A DNA stretch of 64,000 nucleotides from positions 1-64,000 of the forward strand of contig JANQQU010000085.1 of assembly GCA_028284905.1 (NCBI GenBank), written 5' to 3'. This DNA comes from Calditrichia bacterium. Lineage in GTDB: Bacteria; Calditrichota; Calditrichia; RBG-13-44-9; J075. The notes below the pieces were generated by a model, which was not told the DNA's origin, did no database searches, and saw nothing but the letters and a program-made list of their open reading frames with translations. Each line of letters opens with the position of its first letter. Position 1 is the stretch's first letter. Positions 33,488 through 41,469 of this stretch are shown here, in pieces. The position numbers were made by a program, and so were the translations under genes.

Positions 33488-34264
33488 TCAACCGTAACGC
33501 CCCTCGATATAATCGGCAGTTTTCGGATTCTTCGGGGTAAGGAACATCTCCTCGGTGCGGGTATGCTCCATAATTTCACCGAGCAGCATAAAGATGCATT
33601 CATCGCTCACCCGGCGCGCCTGGGCCATATTGTGCGTCACAATCACAATCGTATATTTTCCGGCGAGGGTAAGCATTAGTTCCTCTACTGCGCGGGTCGA
33701 TTCAGAGTCCAGCGCGGAGCAAGGCTCGTCCATCAAAATGATATCCGGCTTAAGCGGCAGGAGGCGGGCGATACAGAGCTTTTGCTGTTGCTCCAGCTGC
33801 AGGCCAGTGGCTTTCTTATCGAGCTTATCTTTGAGATCGTCCCAGAGAAAAACTTCCCGCAGGGATTTTTCCACGACTTCATCCATCTCGGACTTTTTGA
33901 TATTTTTCCGGCGGGAATGCACTCGCAGTCCGAAGACAACATTCTCATAGACGGAAATTGGTAATGGATTCGGGCGCTGAAAAACCATCCCGATTGCTTT
34001 GCGAAGTTCCGGGAGAGATACATCATCATCGTAGATATTTTTTCCGTTGATGAGAATTTCCCCGGTAGTGGTTACGTTACCATAGCGTTCATTCACCCGG
34101 TTAAAACAGCGGAGCAAAGTCGTTTTTCCGCAACCGGAAGGTCCAATCAACCCGGTGATAATCCCATCGGCGATATTCACGGTCACATTAATCAGCGCCT
34201 GAAAATCACCATACCATAAGTTCAGTTTATCGGTAGTAATTGTATACTTAGTATCGTTGCTCAT
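33488..34264 (-). CDS. pstB: PstB-like phosphate ATPase, signature motif lost
   Basis: The 258-residue ATPase has Walker A GPSGCGKT (41-48), Q-loop Gln96, Walker B with D179/E180, D-loop and H-loop His211, all canonical. The place of the LSGGQ signature (155-159) reads LQLEQ, so Ser and both Gly are gone; the following QQKLCIAR is kept. This is unusual for PstB, which normally works as a homodimer needing its own signature. The preceding pstB gene has the opposite defects, and the two overlap by ATGA, so a heterodimer with one competent and one degenerate ATP site is inferred. It would drive phosphate import through PstA/PstC. Confidence 0.93.
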   Translation of the reverse strand: MSNDTKYTITTDKLNLWYGDFQALINVTVNIADGIITGLIGPSGCGKTTLLRCFNRVNERYGNVTTTGEILINGKNIYDDDVSLPELRKAIGMVFQRPNPLPISVYENVVFGLRVHSRRKNIKKSEMDEVVEKSLREVFLWDDLKDKLDKKATGLQLEQQQKLCIARLLPLKPDIILMDEPCSALDSESTRAVEELMLTLAGKYTIVIVTHNMAQARRVSDECIFMLLGEIMEHTRTEEMFLTPKNPKTADYIEGRYG

Positions 34265-35028
34265 CCGAAATTCCCGTTTACATAGTCATAAGTCATTTTC
34301 TGTGCAGGCTTTTCCGAAAAGATGACATCATTGTCATCGATCTCAATCAAATCGCCGTTAAAAATAAAAGCGGTCCGATTCGCCAGACGCCGGGCCTGCT
34401 GCACCAGGTTGGTTACCAGAATAATTGTCATCTCCGAACGCAATTCCTTTAGAACGTCTTCAATGCGCATCGTTGTTACCGGATCCACCGCGATAGAGAA
34501 TTCATCCAGGCAGAGAATTTCCGGCTGATGAGAAAGCGCGCGGGCAATGGTCAGGCGCTGCTGTTGCCCCCCGGACAATTTTGTACCGAGGCTGTCCAGG
34601 CGATCTTTCACTTCGTCCCATAAAGCGGATTGCTTCAGGCAGCGTTCCACCAGTTCGTCCAGATCCGTTTTGTTACGAATACCGGCTGCTCTTGGGGCAA
34701 ATGCGACATTGTCATAAATCGACAGCGGCAAGCCGACCGGCAGCGGAAACACCATGCCGACTTTCCGACGTAATTCGTAGACATTCTTCATTTTCATGAC
34801 GTCTTCACCATCGACCTTTACAACACCCTCCGCCTTCGCTTCCGGGATAAATTCAATTGTCCGGTTGATCACTTTCAGCATACTGGTTTTACCAGACTGG
34901 GCCGGACCAATGACCCCGAGGATCTCATTCTCATATACATCAAATGAGATGCCTTTCAGGGCAGTTTTATCCTCGTATTTTACTACGAGGTTGTTAATTT
35001 CTATTTTTTTCTTTTTTGCGTCACTCAT
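34261..35028 (-). CDS. pstB: PstB-like phosphate ATPase, Q- and H-loop lost
   Basis: The 255-residue ATPase keeps Walker A (GPAQSGKT, 41-48), the full signature LSGGQQQR (151-158) and Walker B D175/E176. The Q-loop Gln is Pro95 (MVFPLP) and the H-loop His is Asn207 (VTNLVQQ). The normal PstB sequences are MVFQ and VTHN. The Walker B end, DEF-SIAVD, also departs from DEP-SALD. It can therefore offer a good signature to the partner ATPase but is unlikely to hydrolyse ATP at its own Walker site. AGGAAAAG precedes the ATG; 21 bases separate it from pstA. Confidence 0.92.
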   Translation of the reverse strand: MSDAKKKKIEINNLVVKYEDKTALKGISFDVYENEILGVIGPAQSGKTSMLKVINRTIEFIPEAKAEGVVKVDGEDVMKMKNVYELRRKVGMVFPLPVGLPLSIYDNVAFAPRAAGIRNKTDLDELVERCLKQSALWDEVKDRLDSLGTKLSGGQQQRLTIARALSHQPEILCLDEFSIAVDPVTTMRIEDVLKELRSEMTIILVTNLVQQARRLANRTAFIFNGDLIEIDDNDVIFSEKPAQKMTYDYVNGNFG

Positions 35029-35049: not shown

Positions 35050-35955
35050 CTACCATTTCTTCCGGGAGCGCAGGTAAACCCGCAATACAATTGCCACAGC
35101 ATTTACTAATAAGACGGTTCCCAGCAGGACAACCGCGGTGCCATACGGCAGGGCTGTCGGCACGTTCGGAACCTGGGTCGAGATTGTAAAGAGATGCATG
35201 GACAGCGCCATACACTGGTCGAAGATGCCGTAAGCGAGCAGATCACCTTCGGGGATTGCCTTAAAGAAAACCGCGCCGGTAAACATAATCGGTGCCGTTT
35301 CTCCGGCAGCACGGGAGACCTGCAGAATGATACCGGTCAGAATCCCACTGATTGAATTGGGCAAAACAATACTGCGGATGGTCTGCCAACGGGTCGCACC
35401 AACATTCCAGCAAGCTTCCCGGAATGCGATTGGCACAGCCCCCAGCGCTTCTTTGGTACTGGCGATAATCACCGGCAAAGTCATAATTCCCAGGGTGAGT
35501 GATGCCGCGATAATCGAGCGCCCCATCCCGGCAAACAGTACGAATGCACCCAAGCCGAAAAGCGCGTGGACAATACTGGGCACACCGGCGAGGTTTACCA
35601 CCGCCAGGTTGATAATCCGGGTAAACCAGTTATCCTTGGCATATTCGTTCAGGTAAACCGCAGCGAGCACGCCAATCGGTGCAGAGGTTACCAGTGATAT
35701 TACGACCAGATAGATGGTACCCAGTAACGCTGCCCAGATACCACCATCACGCATCCCGCGGATTGGATTGGTGAAAATAAAATCCAGGGATAATACTGGT
35801 GCCGCCTTGACAAACAGATAACCGACAATCAGAATTAGCGGCAGGATCATCAAAAGCGTCATGGACATGAAGATATATTTTGCCAGCCCCTGGTAGCGTC
35901 GCTTGGTGCGCACAAAAGGGGTTTCCGTATACATAGCCTGCGTTGTATTACTCAT
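35050..35955 (-). CDS. pstA: Phosphate ABC transporter permease PstA
   Basis: The 301-residue protein has six membrane helices and the PstA features: a first helix after a basic N-terminus, 'GGIWAALLGT', 'APIGVLAAVYLNEYA', and the ATPase-contact (EAA) loop 'EALGAVPIAFREACWNVGATRWQTI'-type sequence, followed by 'ISRAAGETAPIMF'-like residues. It forms the channel with PstC. It lies 67 bases after pstC and 21 before the first pstB. Confidence 0.95.
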   Translation of the reverse strand: MSNTTQAMYTETPFVRTKRRYQGLAKYIFMSMTLLMILPLILIVGYLFVKAAPVLSLDFIFTNPIRGMRDGGIWAALLGTIYLVVISLVTSAPIGVLAAVYLNEYAKDNWFTRIINLAVVNLAGVPSIVHALFGLGAFVLFAGMGRSIIAASLTLGIMTLPVIIASTKEALGAVPIAFREACWNVGATRWQTIRSIVLPNSISGILTGIILQVSRAAGETAPIMFTGAVFFKAIPEGDLLAYGIFDQCMALSMHLFTISTQVPNVPTALPYGTAVVLLGTVLLVNAVAIVLRVYLRSRKKW

Positions 35956-36022: not shown

Positions 36023-36916
36023 TTACTGCTCCTTAATTCCTTTGACAACCAGATCCGCGATCAGATTTACCGCGAAAGTGATTGTAAAGAGCAGAATACC
36101 GATAATAAACAGTACCTGATAATGATCGGATGCGACCGGCGCTTCACCCAGTTCCGCGGCGATTGTCGCGGTAAGGGTACGGACGGAGTCCAGCACACTG
36201 CCGGGAATCTTTACGGCGTGGCCGGTGGCCATCAATACCGCCATGGTTTCCCCGACTGCACGGGCAACACCGAGCAATACCGCTGCTAGCAGCCCATTTT
36301 TTGCGGCGGGCAGCAACACCCGGTAAATCATCTGCCAGCGGGTGGAACCCAGTGCTTCCGCCGCTTCCCGATAGGAATCTGGCACCGCTTTCAAGGCATC
36401 TTCCCCAATGGATACAATAATCGGGACACTCATTAATGCCAGGATAATCCCACCGTTCAGTACCGTCAGCCCAATCGGCGCATCGAAGAGCGTGATAATC
36501 AACTCATTCATCAATGTCAATCCGATAAATCCCCAAACAACTGAGGGAATTGCAGCGAGCAATTCGATCACAATCTTAAACGTTTCTTTCGCCTTCGGTC
36601 CACAAAACTCCGAGACGTATATAGCGGCGCCCAGTCCAAACGGAACAGCAATGGCCATGGACAGCAGAGTAACGCTGGCAGTACCGGCCATTAAAGCCAA
36701 TACCCCATAACGTTTCTGACTGACCGATGTCGGATACCATTCCGGGCTGGTAAGGAATTGCCAGAGATCCAATCCTCCGAAGAGGAACTCTGCCCCTTCA
36801 CGAAAAACAAAAAAGAAGATTCCGAAAACAAAGAGGATGGCACTGATGCCGCAAATCCGAATCAGCCATTCTATGGCTGATTCAGTGATAATTTCCAGTT
36901 GCTTACGATTTCCCAT
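36023..36916 (-). CDS. pstC: Phosphate ABC transporter permease PstC
   Basis: The 297-residue product has six helices, with the GLGAAIYVSEF and AAIPSVVWGFIGL motifs and an EAA loop ending in 'EALGSTRWQMIYRVLLPAA', then 'GVARAVGETMAVLMATGH', all typical of PstC. It forms the phosphate channel with PstA in the inner membrane. AGGGAA precedes the ATG; 27 bases separate it from pstS. Confidence 0.95.
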   Translation of the reverse strand: MGNRKQLEIITESAIEWLIRICGISAILFVFGIFFFVFREGAEFLFGGLDLWQFLTSPEWYPTSVSQKRYGVLALMAGTASVTLLSMAIAVPFGLGAAIYVSEFCGPKAKETFKIVIELLAAIPSVVWGFIGLTLMNELIITLFDAPIGLTVLNGGIILALMSVPIIVSIGEDALKAVPDSYREAAEALGSTRWQMIYRVLLPAAKNGLLAAVLLGVARAVGETMAVLMATGHAVKIPGSVLDSVRTLTATIAAELGEAPVASDHYQVLFIIGILLFTITFAVNLIADLVVKGIKEQ

Positions 36917-36943: not shown

Positions 36944-37873
36944 TTATTCTGCAGATGCTTCCGGCATAACCGCCGGGACGTAACCGCTTGCTTTAACAAT
37001 ATTTTGACCCGCTTCGGACATGACCCAATCCAGATATACTTTGATATCTCCGGTCGGCTCACCGAGGGTATACATATAGAGGGGACGGGCAATCGGATAG
37101 TCGCCGCTCAGGGCAGTTTCCAGGGAAGGGCCAAATGCATCGTCACCAGCATTTTTAGCAACTTTCACAAACTTCACATGATCGGTTTTATAACCCATAC
37201 CACTGTAACCGATAGCGCAGGGGGTTCTTTCAATCAACTCTACCACGTCTTTGGAGCCGTGCAGGTCGCGAGAGCCCAGCTTGAAATCGCTGGTGTTGCC
37301 GAGCAGTGTTTCCCGGAAATAATGATAAGTGCCGGAGTTGGACTGGCGGCTTACCCGGATAATTTCATCACTGGAGCAGGCGCCATGGCTTAACCCAAGG
37401 TCACTCCATTTTTCCAGCGTGCCTTTTTCGCCATAAATGTTTGCCAGCTGCTCAATCGTAATTTCATTCAGGGGATTATCCTGATGAACATATACGGCCA
37501 GGGCATCGTAACCAACAATGTATTCTTTCGGTTCCAGACCGGTGTTTTGCTTCGCTCTTTCCCGCTCTTCCGGTTTCAGCTGGCGACTGCAATTGGCAAT
37601 ATCGACCGTTCCATTGATCAGGGCAGCGATACCGGTACCAGAGCCACCGCCGGAAACTTCGATAGAAACAGCTTCATTAACGCCCACATATTTTTCCGCC
37701 CAGGCCTGGGCCAAATTTACCATTGTATCTGAACCAGAGTTTTGAATCACCATTTTCTCCGGCCCCGCGTCTCCGCCACCACTTTTCGATCCGCAACCGG
37801 TCAATAAAAAACTGCCGGTAATCGCAGCTAAAATTACCGAGAACTTTACAGTTTTTCGAATTTGGGTAAACAT
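36944..37873 (-). CDS. pstS: Phosphate-binding lipoprotein PstS
   Basis: From ATG 37873, preceded by AGAGGAGA, the 309-residue product has a lipobox LLTGC and a Ser/Gly-rich linker. It belongs to the PBP_like_2 phosphate-binding group: 'NSGSDTMVNLAQAWAEKY', 'VSGGGSGTGIAALINGTVDIA', 'RQSNSGTYHYFRE' and 'AIGYSGMGY' carry the phosphate contacts (Ser/Thr/Gly-rich loops and Arg/Asp). It captures phosphate outside the inner membrane and passes it to PstCA. The start at 37942 is rejected because it would bury the signal peptide and overlap phoU. Confidence 0.95.
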   Translation of the reverse strand: MFTQIRKTVKFSVILAAITGSFLLTGCGSKSGGGDAGPEKMVIQNSGSDTMVNLAQAWAEKYVGVNEAVSIEVSGGGSGTGIAALINGTVDIANCSRQLKPEERERAKQNTGLEPKEYIVGYDALAVYVHQDNPLNEITIEQLANIYGEKGTLEKWSDLGLSHGACSSDEIIRVSRQSNSGTYHYFRETLLGNTSDFKLGSRDLHGSKDVVELIERTPCAIGYSGMGYKTDHVKFVKVAKNAGDDAFGPSLETALSGDYPIARPLYMYTLGEPTGDIKVYLDWVMSEAGQNIVKASGYVPAVMPEASAE

Positions 37874-37886
37874 TGTGTCTCTCCTC

Positions 37887-38984
37887 TTATTTGGATTCAT
37901 TGCCCAGGATCGCTTCAACCAGGTCCCGGATATTTTTATCAAGATATTCGTAGGTTTTCAAATAGGCGGTTTCCACTTCTTCCTTGGAACCTTTCAGCTT
38001 GGAAGGATCATCGACTTGCCAGGGGATATAAACTGTTTTGCTCGGACCGGGGAATGCAGCTTCCACTTCTTTACAGAGCGTGATGATCAGTTCGTAATTT
38101 TCCAGATTAAGTATCTGGTTAACATATTTCGATTCCTGATCGGAAATGTCGATACCCTTGTCTTGCATAAACTTGATAGTTTTCTCATCGACGGGATGGG
38201 GAGAAATTCCAGCGCTGCTAAAGGAAAAGCGGTCCTGCCCTAACGCATTACCGATCCCCTCTGCAATCTGCCCGCGACAGGCATCATGTTCATCGACGAA
38301 CAATACCCGGAAGGTGCCGCCGTCTTTATGCTTGATGTTCTTACCGGTCGTCATAAAAAGTACTTCTTCACAGATATTACAGGCCTGGTCCGCGGCACGC
38401 TCGAAACGGCTGGTAATAATCATCAACGGCGCCAGCGCCTCCAGCGGCAACTTGTCTTTCTCCCGCATGGTGACCAGACTGTCATGGATTTCCGTGCGAA
38501 TATCATCTACCTTGCCTTCCAGCTTCATGGTTTGCTTGGCAAGTTTGGCATCTTCATTAACAAAAGATTGCAGCGCGTTGCGCACCATGGGAATAGAATG
38601 ATTGGCGATATTGATGATATTATCATAGGAAGGCTGTGGCTCTATACCACTAAGGTTGAGGAAATGACGGGCGATGCTCTCTGCGTAATCGCCGATACGC
38701 TCTAATTCGTTATTAATTTTGATCACAGCGTAGACGAAACGGAGATGTGCCCCGGCCGGCTGCTGCCGCACCAGAAACTCCTGGCAAAGCTTATCCAGTT
38801 CCCGTTCCATCTCATCGATATAACGGTCTCTGAGCACCACAGAATATGCCTGCTGCCGGTTGTTATTCCGAATTGCCTCCAGTCCCGCTTCCAGTGCCTG
38901 CTCCGCCATGTTACCCATTTCAATAACCTTGCTGCGAATTTGGTCGATGTCTCTTTGCAGACTGGTTTCCAGTTTTGATGTCAT
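37887..38984 (-). CDS. phoU: PhoU fused to a nucleophile-less ArsC/LMW-PTP domain
   Basis: The 365-residue product begins with PhoU (about 1-215), two three-helix repeats with the metal-binding E-R-x-x-D motifs ELERIGDYAES and RFERAADQACN. The rest (about 224-365) is an arsenate-reductase/low-molecular-weight phosphatase domain: VLFVDEHDACRGQIAEG, 'SSAGISPHPVDEKTIKFM', 'KGIDISDQESK' and 'IPWQVDDPSK'. The family P-loop is C-x5-R; here the nucleophile is Asp231, while Cys236 and Arg237 remain, so oxyanion binding may persist without catalysis. PhoU signals phosphate sufficiency between Pst and the PhoR kinase. A bound phosphate or arsenate reader is inferred. GAGGAG precedes the ATG; pstS starts 13 bases after its stop. 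Confidence 0.93.
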   Translation of the reverse strand: MTSKLETSLQRDIDQIRSKVIEMGNMAEQALEAGLEAIRNNNRQQAYSVVLRDRYIDEMERELDKLCQEFLVRQQPAGAHLRFVYAVIKINNELERIGDYAESIARHFLNLSGIEPQPSYDNIINIANHSIPMVRNALQSFVNEDAKLAKQTMKLEGKVDDIRTEIHDSLVTMREKDKLPLEALAPLMIITSRFERAADQACNICEEVLFMTTGKNIKHKDGGTFRVLFVDEHDACRGQIAEGIGNALGQDRFSFSSAGISPHPVDEKTIKFMQDKGIDISDQESKYVNQILNLENYELIITLCKEVEAAFPGPSKTVYIPWQVDDPSKLKGSKEEVETAYLKTYEYLDKNIRDLVEAILGNESK

Positions 38985-39097
38985 CTTTTTTTCTCCTCGG
39001 CTTAGCTTTATTTCTCGTAATCCCAGTATGCCCCACACTTACTTTAAGTCGCCACAGATTATTCTGTGATAAGAATCACAAGAGAAAGCATCAATAG

Positions 39098-39310: not shown

Positions 39311-40735
39311 TTATCCAAAAATGAGTTTCAGGATTTGATAAATAACAATCGCACCAATAGCCCCGGCGGGAATTGTCACAACCCAGGAAATGAGAATATT
39401 TGTTACAACACCCAGGTTAAGGGCACTTATCCCGCGGGCAAGCCCTACACCCAACACGCCCCCGACTAATGTATGAGTTGTGCTGATTGGCAAGCCGAGT
39501 TTAGAGGCAATAACGATTGTCGTAGCAGCAGCAAACTCCGCACAAAAACCACGGGTTGGAGTCAATTCGGTAATTTTCTTTCCGATAGTCAACATCACCC
39601 GCCAGCCCCAGGTTGCCAGGCCAACGACAATACCGACACCACCCATACCAAGCACCCAAAGTGGCACGGCAGACTTCATAGCGACCGCGCCAGTGGTTAC
39701 AATCGAGATGACTGCTGCCAGCGGTCCGACAGCATTTGCAACATCATTGGCGCCATGGGCAAAAGCAACAAAAGCAGCGCTCAAGATCTGTAGATAAACA
39801 AATATTTTTTCAACCGTGCGATAATCAGCGCGGCCTTGCTCAACAACGGATCCTTCTTCAATCTCACTCTCGATGGTTTCCAGATTTTGAATGGTTGCTT
39901 CCAATTGCATCTTAATCTCGCCAGTGGCCTGAGAAGCACCTTTGTTCAGCTGCTCCAGCGCTTTCAAAACCCGTTTATTGACCTGAGCACTCTGGCGTAC
40001 TGTTACCCGGTCTTTCACTTCCTCGGTTTTAATTCGTTTCACCAGAATACTACTAATGAATGAGGCAATTAATCCCACAACAGAGGCAACCCCGATAGAT
40101 TCCCACAATTCCAGATCAAGTTTTAAATTTTTCAGTCCTTTAAAAACCAGCGTAAGGGTTAAAACACCAAATACAAAAAACACCAGATAGGGTGTTATCC
40201 GCTTAGCAGCCTTTACCGGATCGTCACTGTTAAATATCAGCTTTCGAATTAGCATAAAGATGAGGAAAGCGATGGTTCCGCATAGTAAAGGCGATACAAC
40301 CCAACTGGCAACGATGGAGCCGACTTTCGGCCAGTCCGCAGCATCCATACCATGATACATTACACCAAACCCCAATACTGCCCCGACAATGGAGTGGGTC
40401 GTAGATACCGGCCAACCGAAATATGATGCCAACTGTAGCCAAACTGCCGCTGCGAGCAGAGCGCCGATCATCCCGAACGCCAGATCCATTTCCACACCTA
40501 AAAACAATTCCGGATTAATAATTCCTTTCCGGACTGTTTCCGTTACGTGGGTACCCACAAAAAATGCACCTGCAAACTCCAGCACTGCAGCAATGATAAC
40601 CGCCTGTTTAACTGTCAGTGCACCGGATCCAACTGAAGTGCCCATCGCATTGGCGACATCATTCGCACCAATACTCCAGGCCATATAAAATCCCCCGGAG
40701 ACCGCGATTATTAAAATGATTGTTTCAAATGCCAT
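39311..40735 (-). CDS. pit: Pit-type inorganic phosphate permease
   Basis: The 474-residue protein has about 11 membrane helices and the duplicated PiT signature GANDVANA in both halves (SIGANDVANAMG and AHGANDVANAVG), plus STTHSIVGA and STTHTLVGG. A ~95-residue soluble loop (about 232-305, Glu/Lys-rich) separates the halves, longer than in E. coli PitA. It exchanges phosphate with cations across the inner membrane at low affinity. It lies 56 bases after the DUF47 gene and is followed by a terminator. Both are under an array of Pho-like boxes. Confidence 0.96.
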   Translation of the reverse strand: MAFETIILIIAVSGGFYMAWSIGANDVANAMGTSVGSGALTVKQAVIIAAVLEFAGAFFVGTHVTETVRKGIINPELFLGVEMDLAFGMIGALLAAAVWLQLASYFGWPVSTTHSIVGAVLGFGVMYHGMDAADWPKVGSIVASWVVSPLLCGTIAFLIFMLIRKLIFNSDDPVKAAKRITPYLVFFVFGVLTLTLVFKGLKNLKLDLELWESIGVASVVGLIASFISSILVKRIKTEEVKDRVTVRQSAQVNKRVLKALEQLNKGASQATGEIKMQLEATIQNLETIESEIEEGSVVEQGRADYRTVEKIFVYLQILSAAFVAFAHGANDVANAVGPLAAVISIVTTGAVAMKSAVPLWVLGMGGVGIVVGLATWGWRVMLTIGKKITELTPTRGFCAEFAAATTIVIASKLGLPISTTHTLVGGVLGVGLARGISALNLGVVTNILISWVVTIPAGAIGAIVIYQILKLIFG

Positions 40736-40791
40736 GTTGTCCCTTTCTATTTATCATACCTCTCCCAGGCGGGTAAGGGCTTCTCGTCTAT

Positions 40792-41469
40792 TTACTTGAT
40801 GTCCAGGAGCATACGGACGCGATTTGCCAGTTTCTCAGATGAGTTTCCTAATGCAGCGATCGACCTCAAAACACTCATCCAAAGCGTGAAACTGGTATAG
40901 GGCATCGTATCGCCATGATTAAATAATTTCTTGCTTAATTCCCGCTGAAGAATATCTGCTTCATGTTCTAAAAATGCGACGCTTTCTACCATCAGTTTTA
41001 CCTTTTCCGCCTCTTTTCCGCCAAATGAAGCTTCAAGTAATTCATCCATTTCCCGAATAATGTTTTGCGCACTAACAACAGCTTCCATATTCTTTTTCAG
41101 GAAATTATTAAATTCATCTTCCATTCCGGGAAGCGGATCGAGATCATCCTTAAGGGTCATCAGAATACCGATATCTTCGGCTTGATCCGCGATATCATCC
41201 TGTATGCCGAGGATTTCCAGTAAATCACCACGGTTAACCGCCAAAAACAGACCTTTCGGCAAATGATTGCGTATTTCGTTTTTGGTTAGATCAGCGGCGT
41301 GTTCTGTCTCAGATATCTCGTCGGCCAACTCATTCATTTTTGCAAAATCCTTTTTGAAATAGGCTTCAAAAAGGGCATCCAGTTTTTTTACACAGCTGGC
41401 GACCTTTTCCATATGCGATTGCAAAGGGGAAAAAGGAGACTGTGCAAAAAGATTCTTAAAAATAGACAT
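40792..41469 (-). CDS. DUF47/PhoU-like Pit accessory protein
   Basis: The 225-residue protein is all helical and matches the DUF47 (TIGR00153) family: 'SPFSPLQSHMEKV', 'EISETEHAADLTKNEIRNHLPKGLFLAVNRGD' type metal-binding E/D-rich helix and 'SVAFLEHEADILQRELSKKLF'. These are PhoU-related proteins encoded with Pit permeases and thought to regulate them. GGAGG precedes the ATG at 6-7 bases. It is the first gene of a two-gene unit with pit. Confidence 0.92.
   Translation of the reverse strand: MSIFKNLFAQSPFSPLQSHMEKVASCVKKLDALFEAYFKKDFAKMNELADEISETEHAADLTKNEIRNHLPKGLFLAVNRGDLLEILGIQDDIADQAEDIGILMTLKDDLDPLPGMEDEFNNFLKKNMEAVVSAQNIIREMDELLEASFGGKEAEKVKLMVESVAFLEHEADILQRELSKKLFNHGDTMPYTSFTLWMSVLRSIAALGNSSEKLANRVRMLLDIK

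Follow-up and report, generated by a model that had tools for sequence, protein, structure and literature searches.

The Pst system is the textbook phosphate importer and sensor, and it is usually drawn with two identical PstB ATPases. In the window, the 64,000-nucleotide stretch of Calditrichia bacterium DNA analysed here, two adjacent pstB-like genes carry changes in different parts of the ATPase motif set, which raises the question of whether they encode one ATPase composed of two unlike subunits. In an ABC transporter, each ATP site is assembled from two subunits, one contributing Walker A, Walker B, the Q-loop and the H-loop and the other the signature motif (PMC7756269).

The upstream gene, here designated PstB-A (34261-35028, minus strand), encodes 255 amino acids and the downstream gene, PstB-B (33488-34264, minus strand), 258 amino acids, with the stop codon of the former and the start codon of the latter overlapping as ATGA. 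In PstB-A, the signature LSGGQ (residues 151-155; 34564-34578) as well as K47, D175 and E176 are intact, while Pro95 (codon 34744-34746) takes the position of the Q-loop Gln and Asn207 (34408-34410) that of the H-loop His. Furthermore, its Walker A is changed (GPAQSGK vs GPSGCGK), and the D-loop region reads SIAVD. In PstB-B, LSGGQ is replaced by LQLEQ (residues 155-159; 33788-33802), and Walker A, the Q-loop Gln96 (33977-33979), the Walker B residues D179-E180 and the H-loop His211 (33632-33634) are all intact. All motif positions lie on the minus strand and were computed from the gene starts. The coordinates, the ATGA overlap and the complementary motif changes had been reported in the first-pass annotation and were verified by ORF analysis and residue reading.

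The two genes are part of a complete pst operon on the minus strand, whose other members lie upstream and score above their NCBIfam cut-offs. These are the permeases PstA (35050-35955; TIGR00974, 255.1 bits, cut-off 193.45) and PstC (36023-36916; TIGR02138, 275 bits, cut-off 196.45), a PstS-family phosphate-binding protein (36944-37942; TIGR02136, 220.1 bits, cut-off 206.6) with an uncertain TTG start, and a PhoU (37887-39038; NCBIfam PhoU match) that continues into a low-molecular-weight-phosphatase/ArsC-like domain, joined to it by fusion, in which the catalytic Cys is missing. Of the genes directly upstream of the operon (39311-41469, minus strand), one encodes a PHO4/Pit-type transporter and the other a DUF47 protein. 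Among 18950 NCBIfam models, TIGR00972 was the top model for both PstB-A (281.4 bits) and PstB-B (331.1 bits), yet both remain below its cut-off of 343.2. For both, the gene order with pstS, pstC, pstA and phoU is that of PstB; a complete set of ATPase motifs is found in neither subunit singly, only in the two jointly. The fold agrees with the gene order: AlphaFold2 models with a mean pLDDT of 92.4 (A) and 93.4 (B) both have E. coli PstB (9k3x) as their top match, with Z 33.6, an rmsd of 1.3 over 245 residues and 44% identity for A, and Z 34.1, an rmsd of 1.2 over 246 residues and 46% identity for B. Because both models match this structure first, the substitutions are predicted to be located in sound PstB folds.

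Two further PstB genes are present in the 8.55-Mb genome of the window, one above the TIGR00972 cut-off in a canonical PstB operon (contig C21) and one below it (contig C26). The latter (L003 1489-2289; G000:C26:173714-174451) is a solo PstB with the signature LSLGQ, intact Q- and H-loops and its own permeases alongside. With these genes available, the pair could be dispensable in this organism, and its members might be decaying duplicates or assembly artefacts.

In the phylum of the window, 40 genomes were searched. Neither A nor B was found there without the other, and three genomes from two genera have both; each of the remaining 22 genomes with a match has a single PstB above the TIGR00972 cut-off. 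A gene with the same changes standing alone, whose occurrence in related genomes would have spoken against the heterodimer according to the first-pass annotation, was thus found in none of the 40. The scan was extended to the contigs of GTDB genomes with three A proteins as seeds, which yielded at least 80 loci. Among the 80 listed matches there are 36 PstB loci (L056-L091), and all 36 hold A followed by an adjacent B; in one of them (L090) the seed match itself is a canonical PstB that the pair adjoins. The other 44 are other ABC ATPases with 29-35% identity and a best PstB-profile score of 158 bits. In all 36 loci, the A gene has lost the Gln, has Asn for the H-loop His and keeps LSGGQ, and the B gene has Glu for the second signature Gly, with incomplete rows for the B of L082, which ends before the H-loop, and the A of L091, which contains unread letters. 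The 36 listed loci carry NCBI labels of at least 14 phyla, although the labels of metagenome-assembled genomes (MAGs) are fallible: the A gene of L063, labelled Myxococcota, is identical to that of a genome from the family of the window. One locus (L076) belongs to the genome of an isolate, Enhygromyxa salina. Since identical substitutions recur in distant lineages, the complementary breakage of A and B is no chance pattern. An oddity restricted to one phylum was likewise rejected, the pair being rare in the phylum of the window and present in many others.

In 10 of 37 genomes, including that of the E. salina isolate, the pair represents the only PstB matches at E<=1e-60; these genomes are mostly MAGs and hence incomplete. 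Both genes are under purifying selection, with dN/dS in near pairs of about 0.04-0.11 for A (five comparisons) and 0.04-0.05 for B (three comparisons). Full-length ORFs, low dN/dS, the recurrence of the substitutions across lineages and the genomes with the pair only, an isolate among them, led us to reject pseudogenes and sequencing errors, and decay or misassembly of both genes is regarded as extremely unlikely. Tight spacing is common and not universal: the ORFs overlap in 37 of 63 listed pairs and the largest gap is 335 bp, a count that used the longest ORFs and therefore overstates some overlaps, takes in a few loci more than once and omits L143, whose genes are not adjacent. In the Poribacteria loci L059-L062 and L064 (around 7.4-10.2 kb), A and B are followed by an extra PstA-like gene, a third PstB-like gene with LSIGQ or LSNGQ and an H-loop Asn, and PhoU.

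The GTDB scan was biased by its A seeds. For this reason, four phyla were sampled evenly with 77, 61, 79 and 80 genomes (297 in total, centres included) and searched for PstB by the family model. In these samples, 30 adjacent same-strand pstB pairs were read, of which 24 are strict A/B pairs, three are imperfect or partial and three are canonical on both sides; the count leaves out the seed genomes G059, G042 and G051 and the already known G053. The B of L167 has an extra change of His to Tyr, the A of L231 is interrupted by unread letters, and in the partial pair L142, A has Ala for the Gln with the His kept and B reads LSLGQ. The canonical pairs are L140, L141 and L147, the first two from the sample around Paenibacillus. 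A broken gene beside an intact partner was observed in none of the 30 pairs. Likewise, no B-type gene, defined by Glu or Asp at the second signature Gly, was found without a partner among the genes read where the contig permitted one (the B gene L169 stands at a contig edge), and the co-occurrence that the first-pass annotation had suggested checking extends to these wider samples.

The single matches were covered in part. Below the TIGR00972 cut-off a chosen part was read and at 343-386 bits 63 were read (G309:C37 left out), whereas matches above about 386 bits lay outside the reading and could hide a B-type gene or a pair with a sub-threshold A. In the main batch of single matches, 57 of 61 genes were canonical, with LSGGM, LSGGE and LTGGQ accepted as such; the other four are L229 (ISGGQ), L206 (LGPGQ, with Ala for the Gln and an unchanged His) and both members of the A/B pair L231. 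Three further single matches (L256-L258) were all canonical, and L154 holds two canonical pstB genes on opposite strands. Fusions of A and B were not found in loci L056-L091 and L136-L195, the split match in L091 being one gene with unread letters.

Several other PstB variants were observed. A group of solo PstB genes (L173-L175, L181-L185, L192-L193; branch support 99) has LSIGQ or LSVGQ with intact Q- and H-loops. Single genes with an altered Q-loop Gln that belong to no class are L155 (LPEGM), L168 (LPYGL), L177 (LPKGQ), L179 (LSPGE) and L206. Behind the A/B pair of L164, a third, very divergent ABC ATPase with the signature LTTSM is encoded (597-1451).

Across the pairs, the motifs are highly conserved. 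Among 55 A rows, LSGGQ, the Walker Lys, the Walker-B Asp-Glu and the H-loop Asn are found in all 55, and Walker A is changed from GPS to GPA in 52. Of the 55 B rows, 53 have Glu and two have Asp at the second signature Gly, while the Q-loop Gln is kept in all and the His in 54; the Q, H and Gly columns had themselves served in part to define both groups of rows. Exceptions to the strict pattern are L259, L143, L142, L167 and the B of L083, which the first tree does not place on the B branch. The A-clade gene of L180/L259 (L259 6161-6952; genome G231) is followed by PhoU with no adjacent B and has Asp for the Gln; because its H-loop His is kept, it was not counted as having the same changes. 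In L143 (G182:C36:34000-42000), the A-clade gene has Ile for the Walker Lys and Arg for the catalytic Glu, and a B-clade gene (LAPGQ) lies about 2.7 kb away in reversed order.

The ancestry of the pair was analysed with a tree of 154 PstB proteins in which 28 motif positions were masked. The 55 A genes and four odd ones are located on one branch (support 95), and 54 of the 55 B genes and two partial ones on another (support 81), with the L083 B just outside. In a thinned tree of 112 rows, the split of A from B has a support of 96 and that of B from all other rows 88, so that the separation of the B branch from all other rows, at 81 to 88, is not strong. Within a locus, the identity of A to B in the masked columns is 33-51% (mean 40%), lower than the mean of 55% for A to A and 57% for B to B. 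An independent recent duplication in each lineage is not borne out by the motif-masked trees, in which A groups with A and B with B across phyla. Because A and B lie on separate branches across phyla, the pair most likely has an ancient origin, in a single event or in very few. The divergence of A and B is correlated (r 0.90 over 54 pairs; none of 2000 permutations equally high), as is expected for any two genes inherited jointly.

Taken with the residues, these data favour two unlike subunits: PstB-A and PstB-B very probably form an obligate heterodimer, in which one ATP site is of the consensus type and the other degenerate. This heterodimer, already proposed in the first-pass annotation, is supported by the conserved pairing, the ancestry and the selection, and we infer it from sequence. 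Judged by the motifs, the only combination that yields a full site is the Walker half of B with the signature of A. The composite site of B Walker, Q-loop and H-loop with the LSGGQ of A is complete, and in the other composite site both halves are altered, since all changes of the pair, namely Walker A, Gln and His of A and the signature of B, converge on it.

In the proposed mechanism, A and B would be arranged head-to-tail beneath the PstC/PstA membrane pair, and the intact half of B together with the LSGGQ of A would form the consensus, hydrolysing site. The half of A, in which Lys, Asp and Glu are kept and Gln and His are lost, would form the degenerate site with the LxLEQ-type signature of B. 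As A keeps the Lys, Asp and Glu, ATP binding is expected in its site, which probably hydrolyses little and would serve as a latch holding the dimer together. Each turn would consume a single ATP, with phosphate as the presumed substrate, in an asymmetric cycle that would match the unlike PstC and PstA.

A rival reading is a heterodimer with a mild asymmetry, in which ATP hydrolysis is usefully fast at either site. The Walker Lys, Asp and Glu are kept in all A rows, and according to PMC7756269, an active-site H-loop mutant of ABCC1 with His changed to Asn or Gln had near wild-type transport. Since His to Asn is tolerated in ABCC1, Asn207 alone need not kill the site of A. In the pair, however, three contacts on the gamma-phosphate side are altered together in one site, namely the Q-loop Gln, the H-loop His and the signature Gly, and useful hydrolysis at both sites is judged to be very improbable.

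Homodimers are also compatible with the sequences, as the solo LSIGQ/LSVGQ group suggests that the first signature Gly can vary in an apparent homodimer. In a second rival reading, PstB-B would tolerate LxLEQ and be active as a homodimer, and PstB-A would be a regulatory PstB-like subunit, for example a docking partner of PhoU, without shared ATP sites; in Enterococcus faecalis, PstB1 can be dispensed with when PstB2 is present in excess (PMC12096839). Among the genes read, though, it is the first Gly that is changed in solo PstB, whereas the replacement of the second by Glu or Asp is confined to pairs, and no such B gene lacks an A where the neighbourhood is visible. An active B homodimer would also leave unexplained why A retains LSGGQ, a motif acting across the dimer interface, in 55 of 55 rows. 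It appears improbable, albeit somewhat less so than two useful sites, and the heterodimer with one consensus site remains the preferred reading.

PhoU was compared across the loci, with 60 matches in addition to the PhoU of the window. More than 320 residues are found in 22 of the 60 matches (L056, L058, L065-L068, L070-L074, L076-L081, L151, L161-L163, L195) and in the PhoU of the window, and in these 23 rows, which include near-copies such as L195, a low-molecular-weight-phosphatase/ArsC-like part follows. The position compared is that of the catalytic Cys in the CX5R loop. A Cys was found there in none of the 23 rows, which have Asp (21), Ala (one) or Ser (one). The assignment to the LMWPc type is less sure in divergent rows, because the Pfam LMWPc score, 39.6 bits in the window, does not reach the 23.2-bit cut-off in L074 or L077, and no score is listed for L080. 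The Cys-less domain is possibly a phosphate-sensing pseudoenzyme. Some A/B operons have a PhoU without this part, and the fused domain is therefore unnecessary for the pair.

Two E. coli PstB mutants have opposite effects on alkaline phosphatase at any phosphate level, a decrease for Q160K in the signature and an increase for E179Q in Walker B (PMC5775613). In view of these effects, it may be speculated that a fixed PstB asymmetry matters for PhoU signalling. A more far-reaching and rather doubtful extension is that the pairs constitute an ancient importer class in many phyla, an obligate heterodimer with one hydrolysing site whose asymmetry serves signalling: ATP in the silent site would latch PstB in a state read by a PhoU whose phosphatase domain is inactive and has its phosphate pocket turned into a sensor, and sensing would thereby be separated from transport.

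If the heterodimer holds true, a type I importer might run on one ATP per cycle, transport and PhoU signalling could be assigned to separate ATP sites, and the pairs would offer natural variants with which to study what the silent site does. It would also follow that annotation as two 'PstB' genes can mask a two-subunit ATPase.

The nearest known system in fold and sequence for both proteins is E. coli PstB (9k3x, 9k3s), which shares the context of PstS, PstC, PstA and PhoU; there, one gene is used twice, with two chains of the same sequence per entry, whereas in the window two genes carry complementary changes. Tandem pstB genes are described in cyanobacteria, and Firmicutes have them side by side in the pst operon, as pstB1/pstB2 of E. 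faecalis and PstBA/PstBB of Bacillus subtilis. Unlike A and B, both E. faecalis copies are canonical, and PstB2 is required there with PstB1 as an accessory (PMC12096839); according to the authors, no earlier study had been published on how much each of two tandem pstB paralogs contributes. For B. subtilis, a modelling study lists PstBA and PstBB as two ATPase subunits of one complex (PMC11466899), and a mixed PstB dimer is therefore not wholly unheard of. The statement of the first-pass annotation that it knew of no described heterodimeric PstB thus needs to be narrowed in view of these tandem genes and the modelled complex; it stands for degenerate pairs, as no degenerate or heterodimeric PstB pair was found in the literature searched, chiefly open-licence papers.

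One consensus and one degenerate composite site, as proposed for A and B, are known from TM287/288, TmrAB, TAP, CFTR and Pdr5. The degenerate site of Pdr5 has the signature LNVEQ and Tyr for the H-loop His (PMC7756269), and LNVEQ is close to the LQLEQ of PstB-B. The parallel to asymmetric exporters drawn in the first-pass annotation applies to this layout at the level of the motifs; it does not extend to the catalytic Glu, which many exporter degenerate sites lack and PstB-A keeps. Moreover, these systems are exporters, or a channel in the case of CFTR, whereas A and B are separate ATPase subunits of an importer. Among importers, unlike ATPase halves are present in DppDF, OppDF and ECF A/A'. 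One degenerate site has been described for RbsA and NupO (PMC11466899), type II importer proteins in which, unlike the separate A and B, the ATPase halves are fused into a single chain. All of these share unlike ATPase halves in an importer with PstB-A and PstB-B and belong to other importer families.
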